A stretch of DNA of 20,910 nucleotides, taken from IMG/VR virus record IMGVR_UViG_3300020735_000072, positions 1 through 20,910 of that record. The stretch is one strand, 5' to 3'. Position numbers and translations under genes: made by a program. Below the pieces are notes generated by a model. It did no database searches and had not been told where the DNA came from. It saw nothing but the letters and a program-made list of their open reading frames with translations. The stretch is from a virus. Positions 506 to 18,408 of this stretch are shown one piece after another; within the stretch, counting starts at the first letter, position 1, and the number at the start of each line of letters is the position of its first letter.

Positions 506-1477
506 ATGACAGCCCCGATAGACATCATTTCAAGAGCATTAAAAGATATTGGCGCATTAGAAGCAGGTGAAACCCCTACACCTGATGCTGCTCAAGATGC
601 TTTTGATATGCTCAATGATCTCGTTGATCAATGGAGCAACGAAGAAATGATGGTCTATTACAAGAACGAGATTGTGTTTCCTATCGTTCCTGGTCAGACT
701 CAATATACTATTGGCCCTGGCGGTCAAATTGGCGCAATCATTACAGGCTCAATTTCAGGTAATATTCTGACTGTTACAGGCATTAGCTCTGGCGCAATCA
801 ACGTAGGGCAAACCCTTAGTGGTACAGGCATTACAACAGGAACTAAGATTGTTGCAATGCTTACAGGCGCAGGTAATAACGTCAACGAAGCTGGCACATA
901 TCAAGTTAACATTAATCAAAACGTAGCTTCTACAACGATTAATCTTTATTATCAACGCCCATTAAGCATTGATTCAGCGTTTGTTCGTATCAATACAAAT
1001 TCTAATGGCGTACCTATCGTCAACGGTGGCTTAGACTATCCTATCGCTGTTTTAGCGGTAGAAGAATACGAAATGATTGGCTTAAAGACTTTGAACGGCC
1101 CTTGGCCAAAAGCTCTTTACTATCAACCTTCAGAATCATTAGGCAACATCTATGTATGGCCTAATCCTTCTCAAGGCGAAATGCACATCTTTACAGACAA
1201 TCTGTTTCAAAGTTATACCACTTTAAACGATCCTATTATTCTGCCCCAAGGCTACACAATGGCTCTCAGATGGTGTCTAGCAGAGCGTTTAATGCCTATG
1301 TATGGCAAAGCATCACAAACACAAATAGCAATGATTCAACAGTATGCAGCGCAAGCTAAAGCTACTGTTAAACGCATTAATATGAAGCCTGTTCAATCTG
1401 CTAGATTCGCTGATGCTATGTTGGCTTCTCGCCAAAAAGATGCTGGCTGGATTCTATCAGGTGGCTTCTTTAGATAA
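506..1477 (+). CDS. Tail accessory factor / head completion protein, P22 gp4-like
   Basis: A 323-residue protein. The N-terminal part ([19 protein letters not shown], then [20 protein letters not shown]) and the later region [18 protein letters not shown] are typical of P22 gp4-type proteins, which bind the portal ring after packaging and start tail assembly. The start is supported by AGGA with short spacing at about 496-499. Residues about 76-148 form a Gly/Thr/Ser-rich beta-type module that seems inserted between the conserved ITIGPGG-like strand and the [13 protein letters not shown] segment; related modules occur in the next gene. The C-terminal half is helical. The order gp4-like then gp10-like is the same as in P22. 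Confidence 0.8.
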
Positions 1478-1485
1478 GGTTAAAA

Positions 1486-3459
1486 ATGGCAGACTTTGGC
1501 TTTGTTGGCCCGTCATACGAAGCGCCCTCAATTTATCAGGATGCTCAAGAGTGTATTAACTTTAGAGCTGAAATTGACCCATTAAAACTGCCAGGTCAAC
1601 GTGGCATCGTTGCGCTTTATCCTACGCCTGGTTTGACTACACAAGTTGTTTTGCCTAATACGCAAGAAGTGCGTGGCATGAGAACAGTAAGCGGTGGTCA
1701 GCAAATGGTTGCAGTTTGCGGCCCATACGTTTATGTTTTAACTTCCAATCTGACACCTACCATCGTTGGTCAATTAAACACCAGCACAGGTCGAGTAGGA
1801 ATTACAGATAACGGAGTTAACGTATATATCGTTGACGGTGCATATCGCTATACATGGCGTATTAATAATCCTACTGCTGCGACTATTCAAGCTTCAATCT
1901 CAGGCACAACGCTGACAGTCAGCCGTACTTTTTCAGGCACATTAGCAATTGGTCAAGCTTTATATGGTATTGGCTTATCTAATGAAACTGTGATTTTGTC
2001 AGGTTCAGGCACTACTTGGACATTAAATAAGAGTCAAACTGTAGCCTCTACGCAAATGTATGCTTCTAATACGATTGCTTTTCAAGGCGCAGTCGCAGAC
2101 GTAGTAGTAAGTGGTGTAACTTATCATAATTTGACTGTTAGCCCATCAGTAACGCTATATTTAGGTCAAACAATCGTAGGCTCAATGATTTCTGATCAGA
2201 CAATGATCACTCAGATTGTGACAGCAGGCTCAAGCTATTATATTAATAAGTCATATACGATTAGCTCTGAGCAGATGTATGCGCTTAACTTTACTGTTAT
2301 ACCTAATACAGATGGTGCATTTAGTGGAGCAGATGTAGTAGATACTGTAGATAACTACTTTGTTTATAATGATCCTGGCACACAAATCTTTGCTGCTTCT
2401 GATGCTTTAAGCCCTATTACTCAGCCTTTAAGCTTTGCTTCTAAAGATGGCTCACCTGACAATCTTGTATCTTTAATTGTAGATCATAGAGAAGTCTATT
2501 TATTAGGCGAAAACTCAAGCGAAGTATGGACAGACGTAGGTGCTTTCCCATTCCCGTTTCAGCGTATTCCTGGCACATCTACCCAACACGGTATCGTAGC
2601 TAAGTTTTCTGTAGCTCGTGTAGGCAATTCTTTTGCTTATGTCAGCCGAAATATTCGTGGTCAAGCTCAGATTATGATGATGAATGGCTACACGCCTACT
2701 CGTATATCTACCCACGCTGTAGAAAACACGCTTGTCAATCAATATGTAGGCGATGCTATTGCTTGGACATATCAGCTAGAAGGCCATGAAGTTTATGTCG
2801 TTTCGTTCCCTACTTTGGACTTAACTTGGGCATACGACAACACTACTCAAATGTGGCACAAATGGCTTTATGTAGATAGCAACAACGTATTTCATCGTCA
2901 TCGTGGCAATTGCTTGGCTTTATTTCAAGGAATGGTTCTCGTAGGCGATTGGGAAAATGGCAAGATTTACGAGCTAGATCCTACTAACTACACAGACGAT
3001 GGCAATACTATTCGCAGAGTTCGTAGATGCCCCCATTTAGTTGAAGATTTACAACGTCAGTATTTTGATGAATTACAGATCCAGTTTCAGCCAGGCGTAG
3101 GTATTGGCGGCACATTTACAGACACAAACACTTATTTAGGTGATCCTTATACGATTGCGCCTAGTCAAACTGTTTCTATACCCCCTTTAGGCATCTTTGT
3201 AATTGGCAACAATTTAAGCGTTACTAATACGACACCTTACACCAATCCTAAAGCAATGCTACGCTGGTCAAGCGATGGTGGCTCAACATGGAGTCATGAA
3301 TATTGGATTCCAATCGGCCAGCAAGGTAAATACAAAAATCGTGCAATTTGGCGCAGACTAGGCACAGCTCGTGACAGAATTTACGAAGTTGTAATTACTG
3401 ATCCTGTAAAGGCTGTAATCGTGTCTGCAAACTTAAAAGCAAGCGTAGGGGAAAACTAA
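1486..3459 (+). CDS. Packaged DNA stabilisation protein, P22 gp10-like
   Basis: A 657-residue beta-rich protein. Its start (FVGPSYEAPSIYQDAQECIN) and segments such as RGIVALYPTPGL, a VDHREVYLLGENSSEVW strand region and the C-terminal beta domain (RRLGTARDRIYEVVITDPV) are the pattern of the Phage_stabilise family. These proteins form a hub below gp4 and stop DNA leaking from the filled head. Residues about 131-193 and 200-266 hold two successive copies of the module also seen in the gp4-like protein. The start has AAGG-like bases upstream (TAAGGTTAAAA). The stop overlaps the next start (AACTAATGG). Confidence 0.85.
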   Translation: MADFGFVGPSYEAPSIYQDAQECINFRAEIDPLKLPGQRGIVALYPTPGLTTQVVLPNTQEVRGMRTVSGGQQMVAVCGPYVYVLTSNLTPTIVGQLNTSTGRVGITDNGVNVYIVDGAYRYTWRINNPTAATIQASISGTTLTVSRTFSGTLAIGQALYGIGLSNETVILSGSGTTWTLNKSQTVASTQMYASNTIAFQGAVADVVVSGVTYHNLTVSPSVTLYLGQTIVGSMISDQTMITQIVTAGSSYYINKSYTISSEQMYALNFTVIPNTDGAFSGADVVDTVDNYFVYNDPGTQIFAASDALSPITQPLSFASKDGSPDNLVSLIVDHREVYLLGENSSEVWTDVGAFPFPFQRIPGTSTQHGIVAKFSVARVGNSFAYVSRNIRGQAQIMMMNGYTPTRISTHAVENTLVNQYVGDAIAWTYQLEGHEVYVVSFPTLDLTWAYDNTTQMWHKWLYVDSNNVFHRHRGNCLALFQGMVLVGDWENGKIYELDPTNYTDDGNTIRRVRRCPHLVEDLQRQYFDELQIQFQPGVGIGGTFTDTNTYLGDPYTIAPSQTVSIPPLGIFVIGNNLSVTNTTPYTNPKAMLRWSSDGGSTWSHEYWIPIGQQGKYKNRAIWRRLGTARDRIYEVVITDPVKAVIVSANLKASVGEN

Positions 3460-5478: not shown

Positions 5479-6674
5479 TGGCAAACTATAACTTTGATAC
5501 TGATTTAACTGTAAAGCCTCAACAATATGGCTCAAACTTAGGCGATATTGTAAACATGGCTCGTGGCGTTCAAGCTTATCAAAAGCAAGCAGCTACTATG
5601 CCTGCAGAGATTGAACAAGCTAAAGCACAATCAGCTAAATCACAATTAGACTTGCTGCAAAATCAAGTGCAAATGGCTGGTGGCGCAATCACAGGATTAG
5701 AAAACTCTGAAGCTTACAAAGCAAATGATATTAAAGGCTTAAAGAAAGAGCTTTCAGCTACTAAACAATGGACTTCAACTTTTGGTCATTCTCCAGCTAT
5801 TGATACTTTATATCAACAAGCTGAAGAACACCTTAATATGGGTGATGTTCAAGGTTATAAATCTTTATTGCAAAGAGTTAGAAATAGCCTAGCAACTAAT
5901 TCTGAGAAATATGCTGCTGCATTACCAGGCTTTACAACTAATGCTACAGGCAACATTATCTCTACAAATCGTGCTGCTAATACTTTGGGCGAGCCAGGTA
6001 TTGCAGGCACACAAGGCGCACCTAATGCTGGATCACAATTACAAAATCAATTTACGCAAAAGACTAGTATTAATCCTTCAACAGCTCAAGCTGGCATGGT
6101 AAATACTGCTGCAACTAACTATGCAACAGATTTTGCTAAATCACAAGAAACTGCAAGTAATTCTGAGCCTAGAATTGCGTTGTTCCAAAACATTAAAAAG
6201 CTTGCCCCTGAGTCATTTACAGGCGTAGGCGGTGCAAGAAAAGAATTGGCTGCAGGCATTGCACAAGCTGTTGGTCTTGATGTTTATCAAACAGAAAAAA
6301 TGTCAACAGACGAATTGGCTAAATCTTCTGCTATGTTGTCATTGGCTGGTGGTAATACAGACATGGCTCGTCAAATGGCTGAAGCTGCTAATCCTAATAA
6401 GAAGATGAACGAGCAAGCAATTAAACAGATTGCTGATCAAATGATTGGCATGGAAAGACTTAATCAAGCTAAAGTTAAGTTTTTACAACCAGCCGCAAAT
6501 GATCCTAATGCTTATGCTCAAAGACTTGCAGAATTTAACAAGATTAATGATTTCCGTATATTCCAAGAGTCATCACCTGAAGAAGTTAAAAAGCTTAAAG
6601 CATCTATGTCACCTGAAGAACAAAAGCGTATGGGTGATAAAATTAGAATGGCACGTCAACTTGGATTACTATAA
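5478..6674 (+). CDS. Internal virion (ejection-type) protein
   Basis: A 398-residue, mainly helical, Gln/Ala/Lys-rich protein starting MANYNFDTDLTVKPQQYGSN. Coiled-coil-like stretches occur at AEIEQAKAQSAKSQLDLLQ and in the C-terminal half, and the middle (ATNATGNIIS, then GTQGAPNAGSQLQNQF) is low-complexity. It overlaps both neighbours by TAATG, so it is made together with the Gly/Ala-rich protein and the large M15-domain protein. A set of three such proteins after the hub genes fits the ejectosome of P22-like phages. Nothing in the sequence shows an enzymatic function. I cannot map it specifically to gp7 or gp20. Confidence 0.7.
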   Translation: MANYNFDTDLTVKPQQYGSNLGDIVNMARGVQAYQKQAATMPAEIEQAKAQSAKSQLDLLQNQVQMAGGAITGLENSEAYKANDIKGLKKELSATKQWTSTFGHSPAIDTLYQQAEEHLNMGDVQGYKSLLQRVRNSLATNSEKYAAALPGFTTNATGNIISTNRAANTLGEPGIAGTQGAPNAGSQLQNQFTQKTSINPSTAQAGMVNTAATNYATDFAKSQETASNSEPRIALFQNIKKLAPESFTGVGGARKELAAGIAQAVGLDVYQTEKMSTDELAKSSAMLSLAGGNTDMARQMAEAANPNKKMNEQAIKQIADQMIGMERLNQAKVKFLQPAANDPNAYAQRLAEFNKINDFRIFQESSPEEVKKLKASMSPEEQKRMGDKIRMARQLGLL

Positions 6675-8950
6675 TGGCATCTTTTGCTGATATTTGGGAA
6701 GAAACACCAGTAGATAAAACTGGTGGATTAAAGTCTGACTTTGCTAATCGCATCAAAGCAGCAAATGATGCTTGGAAAGAGCAAACAGGCAAAGAATTGC
6801 CTATTACAAGTGGTTTTAGAAGCACACAAGAACAGGCTAACTTATATGCTAATCGTGGCTCAAATCCTAATCTTGTAGCAAGACCTGGCACAAGCAGACA
6901 TGAAGTTGGCGAGGCTACAGACATTATGCCTTCTGTGCCTGATTCATTTTTAAATCAATTTGGTTTGCATAGACCTTATGGCGCAAAAGACCCTGTTCAT
7001 GTAGAAGTAATGCCACAAGTTGCTAAAAGTAACAACTTTGCTGACTTATGGCACTCTGTTGGTGATGTAGAGCCTACTGCTGAAAAGCCTGCTATATCGG
7101 GCATCAAAAACCCATTAATTAAGCGTAATGTAGAAGCAGCTCAAGAGTTTGTGCAAACAGGCAAACAGCTAGGCAAAGGAATTGCATCTCTTGCTGACGT
7201 AGCATTAGGCGCTGTGCCTGCTGCTGTAGGTGGCGTTACATACGCTGGCGGCAGAGCATTAGGTCAAACACCTGAACAAGCACAAGCTTTGGCTCAAAAA
7301 GTTTCAGCACCATTAGAACAACCTATTGGCAAAGCATTAGGAATAACAGAAGATCAAGCTTATAAACAAGAAGCTTCACGTCAAGCTATGAATAAGATTG
7401 GTCAATACATTGGTCAAAGTGCTGATGTTATTTCTGAAAAAACTGGCATACCTAAAGCTGACGTAGAAAACATGATTAATACAATCAGTTTTGCAGCAGG
7501 CAAGCCAGTAGCTAAATTAGGAACATTAGCAAAAGATATTTTGACTGAGCCTGTAAAGCCTTTGACAGAAGCTACATTACAAAGTCAATTTGCAGCAAAG
7601 GGTGGCGCAAACGTAGGCGCAGCAGAAGTAGCTAATAAAACTAAATTAGAACAAGCTATGTCTGTTGCAAGCCCAGAGCTAAAATCTGAACTTTCCAATA
7701 TCAAGCCTAGTGAATTAAATTCAGAAGTATTAGATCGTCATTTAGAAGCTGATTCTTTGCCTGTTCCTATTCGCTTAACTAAAGGTCAAGCAACTCAAGA
7801 CGTTAAAATTTTGTCTGACGAAATTAATAGCAGAGCTAAAAACCCTGAGTTGGCGTATCGTTATAACGAGCAAAATCAACAATTATTAGACAACATCAAC
7901 GCTATCAAAGAAAATGCTTCACCTAATGTATATGGCACAAACCATGTAGAAAACGGTCAAACATTAATTGATTCTTACAAAGCTATTGATGAAGCTCGCA
8001 AGCAAGACATAAATGCAAAATATGAAGCTTTAAAAGAAGCTGCAGGCGGTGAATTTCCTGTGGATGGTGCTGCATTTGCCAATAACGCATTTAAACAGCT
8101 CAAAAAAGAACTTAAAAGCGACTTTGTTCCACCAGCGATTGAAAAGCAATTAAAACGCTTTCAAGAGGGTGAGCCTATGACTTTTGAGCAATTTGAAGCT
8201 ATGAGAACTAATCTAGCTTCTGAAATGCGTAAAGCAGCAAGAGCTGGCGATGGTAACGCAGAAGCAGCGGCAAGTATTGTCAGAAGTTCTTTAGAAGATT
8301 TGCCTTTAACTGGCGCAGCAAAAGATTTAAAGCCTTTGGCTGATGAAGCTAGAAACGCTGCCCGTCAACGCTATCAAGTTCTTGAACAAGATAAAGCTTA
8401 TAAAGCTGCTGTAAATGATGCAATACCAGCAGATGACTTTATTCAAAAGTTTGTAGTCAATGGCAAAAAAGCTGACATTGACACAATGGTTAAACATTTA
8501 GGTGAAGACTCTACTGCAAGAGAAGTAATGGCTGCAGGCTTGATTAATTGGCTTAAATCAAAATCAGGCATAGTCAATGAATCAGGAAACTTTAGCCAAG
8601 CAGGATTTAACAAGGCTTTGCAAAGCGTTGATCCTAAGATTTTGTCTATTGTTGGCCCAGAAGTTAACGCACAACTAAAAGCCCTTGGTAACACAGCAAG
8701 ATTGACACAAGCTAGACCAAAAGGCAGCTATGTCAACGAATCAAATACTTTTGTAAATCAAGCTGCTGCATTAGCTAAATCAGGGGCAGAAAAAACTGCA
8801 AACGTAGTCCTTGGTGGTGGCATAGTGCCTGTAGGATCAATGGTCAGAGAAGCTGCTCAAAGACGTGCGGCTACAAAATTAACTCAAGAATCATTGAAAC
8901 CAGGCGCAGGAATCAAAAAAACTAAACTTTCTGATATAGGAAAACAATAA
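6674..8950 (+). CDS. Large ejection protein with N-terminal M15-type peptidase domain
   Basis: A 758-residue protein. Residues about 18-115 carry the M15 (D-Ala-D-Ala carboxypeptidase / L-Ala-D-Glu endopeptidase type) signature: SGFRS at 46-50, SRHEVGEATD at 74-83 (zinc ligands His76 and Asp83) and PVHVEV at 107-112 (His109). This domain probably cuts peptidoglycan peptides during DNA entry. The remaining ~640 residues are helical and Ala/Lys/Gln-rich with an Ala/Gly-rich, possibly membrane-active part near 165-200. The motif SFADIW at the start recurs as NFADLW just after the peptidase domain. It overlaps the preceding and following genes by TAATG. Confidence 0.8.
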   Translation: MASFADIWEETPVDKTGGLKSDFANRIKAANDAWKEQTGKELPITSGFRSTQEQANLYANRGSNPNLVARPGTSRHEVGEATDIMPSVPDSFLNQFGLHRPYGAKDPVHVEVMPQVAKSNNFADLWHSVGDVEPTAEKPAISGIKNPLIKRNVEAAQEFVQTGKQLGKGIASLADVALGAVPAAVGGVTYAGGRALGQTPEQAQALAQKVSAPLEQPIGKALGITEDQAYKQEASRQAMNKIGQYIGQSADVISEKTGIPKADVENMINTISFAAGKPVAKLGTLAKDILTEPVKPLTEATLQSQFAAKGGANVGAAEVANKTKLEQAMSVASPELKSELSNIKPSELNSEVLDRHLEADSLPVPIRLTKGQATQDVKILSDEINSRAKNPELAYRYNEQNQQLLDNINAIKENASPNVYGTNHVENGQTLIDSYKAIDEARKQDINAKYEALKEAAGGEFPVDGAAFANNAFKQLKKELKSDFVPPAIEKQLKRFQEGEPMTFEQFEAMRTNLASEMRKAARAGDGNAEAAASIVRSSLEDLPLTGAAKDLKPLADEARNAARQRYQVLEQDKAYKAAVNDAIPADDFIQKFVVNGKKADIDTMVKHLGEDSTAREVMAAGLINWLKSKSGIVNESGNFSQAGFNKALQSVDPKILSIVGPEVNAQLKALGNTARLTQARPKGSYVNESNTFVNQAAALAKSGAEKTANVVLGGGIVPVGSMVREAAQRRAATKLTQESLKPGAGIKKTKLSDIGKQ

Positions 8951-9495
8951 TGTCAGTCTTACTATCCCCCATTGGCAATGGATTTCAATTCTTTACTACT
9001 ACAGGTTTACCTTTAGCTGGTGGCTATTTATATAGCTATCAAGCTGGCTCTAGCACACCTTTAACCACTTATACAGACTCTACAGGCAATACTGCTAATA
9101 CGAACCCTATTGTTCTTGGTACAGATGGCAGACCACCATACGAGATTTGGCTTACATCAGGCTATTCTTACAAATTTGTTTTAGCAGATTCAACAAACTC
9201 TGTTATTGCAACTTACGACAATATTTACCCTATTCCTAATGCTACTGCTACTGGCACTACTGTACCTGCTGGCGCAATCATTATGTGGTCAGGCTCTATT
9301 GGCTCTATTCCTAGTGGTTATGTAATCTGTAATGGTTCAAACGGTACACCTGATTTGCGTGATTCATTTATAGTAGGTTCTGGTAATACTTATGGCGTAG
9401 GAAGCACAGGTGGCTTTGTAAATTCTGGAGTAATGACTTCAGGAGGCACAAATACACCGCTTTATTATTCATTGGCATTTATACAAAAGACGTAA
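8950..9495 (+). CDS. Short tail fibre protein with head-binding-like and collar domains
   Basis: A 181-residue protein. The N-terminal half (MSVLLSPIGNGFQFF, then GGYLYSYQAGSSTPLTTYTD, PIVLGTDGRPPYEIWLTSG and YSYKFVLAD) has the pattern of virion-binding N-terminal domains of podovirus fibres. The second half (VPAGAIIMWSGSIGSIPSGYVICNG, then TPDLRDSFIVGSG) is the phage tail collar motif, and YYSLAFIQKT is a usual fibre C-terminus. It is the likely host-recognition protein. It is short for a fibre, with almost no shaft, so either recognition is by the collar-like tip or another adhesin lies outside the window. It begins on the stop of the ejection gene. Confidence 0.8.
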   Translation: MSVLLSPIGNGFQFFTTTGLPLAGGYLYSYQAGSSTPLTTYTDSTGNTANTNPIVLGTDGRPPYEIWLTSGYSYKFVLADSTNSVIATYDNIYPIPNATATGTTVPAGAIIMWSGSIGSIPSGYVICNGSNGTPDLRDSFIVGSGNTYGVGSTGGFVNSGVMTSGGTNTPLYYSLAFIQKT

Positions 9496-17207: not shown

Positions 17208-17308
17208 TTGTAGGTTTATCGCAACTTAAAAAGGGTGCTATACCTAACGCAATGATTTGGGTGGGTTATGCGTTTGCTCAAGTTGGTCTTTGGATGTCAC
17301 TTAAATGA
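17162..17308 (+). CDS. Small membrane protein (48 aa)
   Basis: A 48-residue frame: MLEKYIVGATGFGYLVVGLS, then QLKKGAIPNAMIWVGYAFAQ and VGLWMSLK. Two short hydrophobic segments (about 6-20 and 30-45) flank a basic QLKKG turn, so it is probably a hairpin membrane protein. GGGGGA lies about 6 bases before ATG 17162. Its stop overlaps the methyltransferase start (ATGA). From memory, similar two-helix proteins occur next to replication genes of phages; no function is known. Confidence 0.65.
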   Translation: MLEKYIVGATGFGYLVVGLSQLKKGAIPNAMIWVGYAFAQVGLWMSLK

Positions 17309-18408
17309 ACTATTTAAGCGTATGTTCTGGCATTGAAGCTGCCACGGTTGCGTGGCATCACATGGGTTGGAAGCCTGTAGGTTTTAGTGAAATTGAGAAA
17401 TTTCCTAGCCAAGTGCTTTCACACCACTATCCACAAGTCACCAATTTTGGTGATATGACTAAATATAAAGAATGGAAATTAGATGACTCAATTGGACTTT
17501 TGGTCGGGGGAACTCCCTGCCAATCATTTAGCGTTGCAGGTCTTAGAAAAGGACTTGATGACCCAAGGGGCAATCTTGCACTCACCTATTGTGGAATACT
17601 TGACCACTTTAGACCCAAGTGGTTCGTTTGGGAAAACGTGCCAGGTGTCCTCAGTTCAAACGGTGGAAGGGATTTTGGTTCATTCCTCGGGGCGTTGGTC
17701 GAACTCGGGTATGGGTTCAGCTACAGAGTGTTGGATGCTCAATACTTTGGAGTCCCCCAAAGACGCAGACGAGTGTTTGTTGTCGGACATCTTGGAGATT
17801 GGCAGCCTACAGCAAAAGTATTATTTGAGTCAGATTGCTTGCGAAGGGATACTGCGAAGGGCAGAAAGAAGGGGCAAGAAACTTCCGACAGCCTTATACC
17901 AAGCCTTGCAGGAACGCTTGATAGAGAATGTGGTGGTGGAAAGCTAAGTCACCAAACTGCTGCATCTGGCCATATTATTCCTACTTACTGGAATGGTGGT
18001 CAATTAGCGGAATGTTTAACTGCTAAAGGCGATGACCAGCGTATGCCTGACAAAAACAGATTTCAAGCTGTATTGCAACCAATACCAATCCATGCACAAG
18101 CAACACAATTTAAAGGTGGTGGCGATAATAGAAATAATGACGGAAAGGGGAATGGTTTAGGCATTGGCAATCCAGGCGATCCAATGAATACATTAGACAC
18201 TTCAAGCCGTCATGCTGTATTTAATAAAATGGCAGTTCGTAGGCTTACAGAAATTGAATGTGAGCGTTTACAGGGATTTCCTGACAATTACACTAACATT
18301 CGTGAAAACTGTCCTAGTGGTGCAAGATATAAATCATTAGGAAATTCTATGGCCGTGCCAGTAATGCGTTGGATAGGGGAAAGGATTAATCAATATGAAA
18401 GAATATGA
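17305..18408 (+). CDS. DNA (cytosine-5) methyltransferase
   Basis: A 367-residue protein with all catalytic motifs of C5 methyltransferases in order: SVCSGIEAA (motif I, S-adenosylmethionine binding), GGTPCQSFS (motif IV, catalytic Cys72), ENVPGV (VI, about 110-115), QRRRRVFVVG (VIII, 152-161), a target-recognition region of about 165-305, and RLTEIECERLQGFPD (IX) with YKSLGNSMAVPV (X). It transfers a methyl group to C5 of cytosine; the recognition sequence cannot be read. No restriction enzyme is adjacent, so it is probably an orphan phage enzyme that protects the genome. Codons 60-214 are shared with a second gene in the +1 frame. Confidence 0.92.
   Translation: MNYLSVCSGIEAATVAWHHMGWKPVGFSEIEKFPSQVLSHHYPQVTNFGDMTKYKEWKLDDSIGLLVGGTPCQSFSVAGLRKGLDDPRGNLALTYCGILDHFRPKWFVWENVPGVLSSNGGRDFGSFLGALVELGYGFSYRVLDAQYFGVPQRRRRVFVVGHLGDWQPTAKVLFESDCLRRDTAKGRKKGQETSDSLIPSLAGTLDRECGGGKLSHQTAASGHIIPTYWNGGQLAECLTAKGDDQRMPDKNRFQAVLQPIPIHAQATQFKGGGDNRNNDGKGNGLGIGNPGDPMNTLDTSSRHAVFNKMAVRRLTEIECERLQGFPDNYTNIRENCPSGARYKSLGNSMAVPVMRWIGERINQYERI
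17483..17947 (+). CDS. Overprinted gene inside the methyltransferase gene, unknown protein
   Basis: A 154-residue frame, wholly inside the methyltransferase gene in the +1 frame. It starts MTQLDFWSGELPANHLALQV and contains SSGRWSNSGMGSATECWMLN, then DECLLSDILE, QQKYYLSQIACEGILRRAER and RGKKLPTAL. From memory, proteins with SSGxWxNSGMG...YxLSxxAxxGILRRAExRGKxLP are found in many phages, and the reading is protein-like to the end. The frame stays open across motifs IV-VIII of the other gene, a long overlap for a chance frame. There is no clear ribosome-binding site; ATG 17483 is the first likely start. Function unknown. Confidence 0.75.
   Translation: MTQLDFWSGELPANHLALQVLEKDLMTQGAILHSPIVEYLTTLDPSGSFGKTCQVSSVQTVEGILVHSSGRWSNSGMGSATECWMLNTLESPKDADECLLSDILEIGSLQQKYYLSQIACEGILRRAERRGKKLPTALYQALQERLIENVVVES

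Follow-up and report, generated by a model that had tools for sequence, protein, structure and literature searches.

Why should two neighboring proteins in the tail of a P22-like phage carry the same additional domain? This question arises from a freshwater, P22-like phage represented in IMG/VR by a 20.9-kb virus window, by which we mean the whole stretch of DNA analyzed. The segments at issue, which we term modules, are 63-73 residues long; one lies in a gp4-like adaptor and two lie in tandem in a gp10-like hub protein, and all three were found exactly at the residues proposed in a first-pass annotation (Table 1). Within the window, gp4 and gp10 are the only module carriers; no capsid genes are present, so the phage may have further module copies outside the window. 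Other genes observed in the window encode a protein of 758 aa in ejection-protein position that has a VanY-type peptidase domain at its N terminus (6674-8950; PF02557, 3e-8), a very short collar-type tail fiber of 181 aa (8950-9495; phrog_1800, 2e-15), which was the sole fiber-like gene noticed, and a C-5 cytosine DNA methylase in a phage-type early region (17305-18408; PF00145, 1.5e-59).

Table 1. Positions of the two host genes, the three modules, and the second gp10 insert site in the window
Feature	Position	Strand	Remarks
gp4-like head-tail adaptor, 323 aa	506..1477	+	matches to P22 gp4, PF24175 SU10_adaptor, and phrog_12985
Module 1 (gp4 aa 76-148)	731..949	+	without counterpart in module-less relatives
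gp10-like packaged-DNA stabilization/head-closure (hub) protein, 657 aa	1486..3459	+	phrog_578, P22 gp10
Module 2, 10a (gp10 aa 131-193)	1876..2064	+	first of tandem pair
Short linker joining both gp10 modules	2065..2082	+	
Module 3, 10b (gp10 aa 200-266)	2083..2283	+	second of tandem pair, most divergent copy
Second gp10 indel site (aa about 541-583)	3106..3234	+	unrelated, no module copy

We scored the modules pairwise, setting each pair against 2000 shuffles. The gp4 module scored against 10a with a Z of 10 and 10a against 10b with a Z of 12.5, neither score being reached by any of the 2000 shuffles, whereas the gp4 module and 10b were more weakly related (Z 3.9, reached by 8/2000 shuffles). 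Due to the weakness of this last pair, the firm linkage of the three copies runs only via 10a and relatives. The strong pairs had scores of 99 and 95, and the rest of both proteins never scored above 34. Other genomes of the lineage carry textbook modules at both gp10 positions; in L032, for example, the second copy is canonical. All three segments share a profile and a fold as members of a common module family. These findings, together with the shuffle scores, bear out the earlier proposal of three copies of one shared module, and we conclude with high confidence that the segments represent one promiscuous domain family inserted in both proteins.

Structure prediction, which the first-pass annotation had suggested as a check, gave small beta-barrels for the modules in both proteins. 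The AlphaFold2 model of the gp10 tandem pair contained two such barrels (pLDDT 91, pTM 0.81), and the gp4 module formed one in the model of the whole gp4-like protein, with strands at residues 76-96 and 131-148 and a pLDDT of 88-95 except in the hairpin at residues 121-130. Foldseek searches of the PDB returned no module match at an E value below 1e-3, and a module-profile sequence search of solved structures yielded chance matches only. By VIA-align, the modules came closest to barrels of two kinds, translation-factor domain II and Uba1, with Z scores of 6-7.6 and deviations of 2.0-2.8 A across 65-73 residues. For the gp4 module, eEFSec domain II superposed at 2.3 A across 72 residues (Z 7.6); matches to Uba1 barrels were at about 2 A. 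Scores of this size also arise from common arrangements, so we do not claim kinship with translation factors. Domain II of translation factors counts among the RIFT-related group. Many tail and neck proteins of phages contain RIFT-related domains (PMC10684548). The whole tandem pair was also matched by an uncultured Caudovirales P22-Gp10 protein (A0A6J5QB28; TM 0.84, E 4.5e-11), which is a relative within the same lineage and not an independent case.

Both host proteins are homologs of P22 tail components. The gp4-like protein matched PF24175 SU10_adaptor (6e-9) and phrog_12985 (3e-40); its N- and C-terminal helices matched the P22 gp4 profile (E 4.7e-5), and its helical core superposed on P22 gp4 in a model comparison (VIA Z 15.0, 113 residues, 2.1 A). 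The gp10-like protein matched the head closure Hc3 family phrog_578 (5.6e-96 over residues 1-541) and P22 gp10 (hhalign probability 98.6, E 1.3e-15), with homology to P22 gp10 and head closure Hc3 running along the protein. Insertion of the modules into these homologs, as first proposed, was confirmed by clean in-frame gaps in module-less relatives, and alignments showing that these relatives lack exactly these segments speak against the segments being normal parts of gp4 or gp10. In gp4, the stretch missing from module-less relatives in phage records is about 75 aa long and is flanked by ..YTIGPGG and ..RPLSID. In gp10, an insert of about 140 aa between RYTWRINNPTA and FTVIPN is missing, and comparison with the P22 gp10 profile left a gap over the same segment.

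The further view that the modules sit in otherwise family-typical proteins held for the insertions but not for the gp4-like protein, which is not plain P22-type and has an extra beta domain. In its model, a beta region at residues about 53-232 interrupts the helices, and module 1 is nested inside this region. The region aligned with the SU10, T7, and N4 adaptors, and the model resembled the SU10 adaptor with a Z of 9.5 to 9.6 and the T7 adaptor with a Z of about 11; P22 gp4, whose type is marked by having no extra fiber-dock domain, has no such region. Judged by its model, the gp4-like protein is a wider adaptor type and not a plain P22 gp4, with the barrel module added to a domain that resembles the fiber dock of T7/KP32/SU10 adaptors.

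One explanation for the modules is fiber or spike docking, in which the gp4 module would extend the dock domain, the gp10 pair would extend an outer propeller blade, and together they would grip a fiber or spike. In SU10, adaptor dock loops hold the long tail fibers, short fibers attach to a loop on propeller blade 1, and blades 1-3 of the hub protein point away from the channel, while the fiber-dock region is absent from the P22 and Sf6 adaptors (PMC9509320). The likeness of the gp4-like model to the SU10, T7, and N4 adaptors, richer than the P22 helical core, and a conserved hairpin of the gp4 module's own (G-A-G-G-N-V-N-E-x-G-T-Y) are consistent with docking. However, hhalign found no match to the SU10 adaptor, so that equivalence to the dock loops is unsupported by sequence, and the module also occurs in sheath, capsid, and cement proteins, at sites without fiber docking. 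We regard docking as unlikely.

In gp10, module 2 is preceded by ..YRYTWRINNPTA and the pair is followed by FTVIPN.., flanks that mark a probable beta-propeller hairpin; by strands counted by eye along the sequence, this hairpin would connect the final two strands of propeller blade 2. In SU10, nozzle domains are beta-domains inserted in the propeller between blades 2 and 3 (PMC9509320), and the gp10 pair, itself probably inserted in a propeller, could swing out and lengthen the tail at infection in the manner of the Ig-like nozzle domains of SU10 gp17. This extension is the least probable of the explanations that we considered: hhalign found no sequence link between gp10 and SU10 gp17, no Ig family scored above its cut-off, the pair amounts to only two domains, and the gp4 copy is left unexplained. 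At the curated cut-off, no Ig-type Pfam family was detected for 15 module members or for the window modules, and the best Ig-family score was that of Big_6 (E 0.084) in 1/15 members. Ig-like domains serve as add-ons in phage structural proteins. The modules are like them in being small beta-domains shuffled among the surface proteins of virions and onto some proteins secreted by bacteria but differ in being predicted as a barrel of the elongation-factor domain II type; domain mosaicism has been described for phages (PMC10684548).

We surveyed about 300 gp4 and 318 gp10 sequences for insertions of 15 aa or more and found nearly all of them at one gp4 loop and two gp10 loops. One of the two gp10 loops houses the modules. 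The other holds an unrelated insert of ~40 aa here (Table 1) that varies in length; inserts at this site are common, with about 150 insert calls among relatives. Four relatives (L147, L156, L169, and L171) have a glycine-rich repeat (..GGTGYxVND.. / ..TNAGAYTSLPTNPVSTS..) nested in the second gp10 module, where it interrupts the hairpin and so places one insert within another, and their apparent "three-module" gp10 was found to be two modules, the second of which is split by the other insert. The region between gp4 and gp10 also varies: an annotated endonuclease gene, possibly for a homing endonuclease, lies there in two loci (L084:5035-5613 and L090:2088-2576), and gaps of about 660 bases in L008 and L010-L013 suggest an extra gene at this position.

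Among 294 retrieved loci carrying both proteins, we recorded the number of gp4 modules followed by the number of gp10 modules. State 1.2 was observed in 125 loci, 1.0 in 77, 0.0 in 74, 2.0 in 9, 2.2 in 5, and 1.3 in 4, counts that are not frequencies because the queries shape the sample; state 0.2, gp10 modules without a gp4 module, was not seen in any of the 294. These states bear on the suggestion in the first-pass annotation that the modules tie gp4 to gp10. A clamp formed by shared modules dimerizing across the adaptor-hub interface would suit a domain shared by two touching proteins and the occurrence of gp10 modules only where gp4 also has one, but this co-occurrence rests on about one event, and in 86 of the genomes sampled, gp4 has a module and gp10 has none (77 with one gp4 module and 9 with two). 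Due to these 86 genomes, an obligate clamp is unlikely and the suggestion is weakened; we consider it very improbable that clamping explains the modules.

In a host-protein tree built from the module-free parts, every gp4-module genome fell in one clade (support 1.0), and the gp4 module was gained once on this tree. Since an insert with partial module similarity (hhalign E 2.9e-5, 41 columns) occupies the same gp4 site in the sister Xanthomonas phage PBR31, this gain may be older. Inside the gp4-module clade, genomes with and without gp10 modules separate, with weak support near the root (0.11 and 0.74), and the gp10 pair was probably gained once, within this clade.

In relatives, the gp4, gp10a, and gp10b copies fall into three distinct lineages (3 changes for 4 labels), and we therefore rejected the idea that the copies arose by recent local duplication. 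Gp10a and gp10b, whose grouping has a support of 0.91, may nevertheless go back to a single, old tandem event. In a wider tree with outside modules, the gp4 and gp10 copies stay largely apart, with poorly supported deep nodes, and a small number of modules from bacteria and viruses are interspersed with the gp10 copies, again with poor support. Where relatives have a second gp4 copy, it groups with a different module lineage, indicating a separate acquisition and no local duplication. Computed against 26-28 relatives, dN/dS was highest in the gp4 module (0.16), followed by 10a (0.12) and 10b (0.08), and was 0.07-0.09 in the host proteins; these values are rough because dS is near saturation. 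Amino acid identity was lowest in 10b (0.56, versus 0.78 for the remaining gp10), and the gp4 module is almost as conserved as its host protein. The modules are old and under purifying selection, and strong variability of the type expected in a receptor-binding surface was not found in them, which weighs against the adhesive role considered below.

The first-pass annotation also mentioned similar modules in other phage structural proteins, and profile and structure matches in sheath, cement, capsid, baseplate, and fiber proteins agree with it. The module profile matched a tail sheath (L179), a tail protein (L178), minor-head/cement proteins (L184, L191, and L202; PF22758 and PF23982), a capsid protein fused to a protease (L188), baseplate-type proteins (baseplate wedges; L133 and L166), virion structural proteins (L126 and L149), fibers (L334 and L168), and the product of a gene adjoining a major capsid gene (L092). 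Predicted viral protein structures that matched included tail fibers, a major capsid protein, and giant-virus collagen-like proteins. On bacterial contigs, the module follows a GH5 cellulase domain (L183), occurs in a GEVED-domain protein (L200), and lies between the two SusD domains of a SusD-family outer-membrane protein (L217:1792-3618). Pfam, searched with the window modules and 15 members, has no model for the module. Among PHROGs, it was present only within phrog_21413 and phrog_38233 (tail fiber), at profile positions about 398-467 and 553-630, but these are long unrelated proteins in which the module is no named family. No stretch of the diverse module alignment was conserved enough for a collection scan, and the consensus sequence was scanned instead; tblastn of this consensus against phages and plasmids gave no match, which is not evidence of absence because the low-complexity filter is the likely cause and the window's own module, as query, does match phage proteins.

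The fusions to minor-head/cement proteins are consistent with a cement function, in which the modules would touch neighboring subunits and brace the collar against internal pressure. The conservation of the gp4 module also suits this function, as does the top phage structure match, chain 1 of 8eci, from Arthrobacter phage Bridgette, a phage with dimeric capsid cement proteins (PMC13033339). However, that chain 1 is the cement protein is a step that we infer, many close relatives have no gp10 modules, and modules in sheaths and fibers are ill-suited to bracing a pressurized shell. We judge cementing to be slightly less likely than fiber docking.

Because the domain recurs in many virion proteins and a few secreted bacterial proteins, the module is probably an accessory surface knob and not part of the core tail machine, and surface decoration, another of the roles initially suggested, best fits the module distribution. 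The reading that we favor overall, with somewhat better than even confidence, is that of a promiscuous surface domain forming accessory collar knobs with a weak adhesive role; the adhesive role taken by itself is put forward tentatively. A module copy would have been spliced into a loop of the adaptor's fiber-dock-like beta domain, and later a tandem pair would have been spliced into the gp10 beta-propeller hairpin, all three copies then being inherited vertically under purifying selection. The P22 tail has 12 gp4 and 6 gp10 subunits. With the same composition, the present tail would carry ~24 knobs around its collar, and we infer that these knobs may face outward and touch the cell surface or its glycans weakly, through many copies at once. 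Circumstantially, a few bacterial carriers being secreted or outer-membrane glycan-handling proteins (GH5 and SusD) would by analogy be compatible with glycan binding, which was among the original suggestions. As the most likely order, we place weak multivalent cell-surface adhesion first, fiber docking second, and cement third. A broader role is more doubtful, namely that this unnamed mobile domain in outward loops of capsid, cement, adaptor, hub, sheath, baseplate, and fiber proteins is a general adhesive knob, with the second repeat nested in its hairpin.

Because the module is common in virion proteins but lacks a Pfam model, a profile would allow the annotation of many regions now called "hypothetical." Two tail-hub loops are marked here as tolerant of large inserts. 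The head-tail connector is normally among the most conserved parts of podoviruses, and the present locus records an accessory domain entering this core structure in a readable order of gain, in one protein and then in its neighbor.
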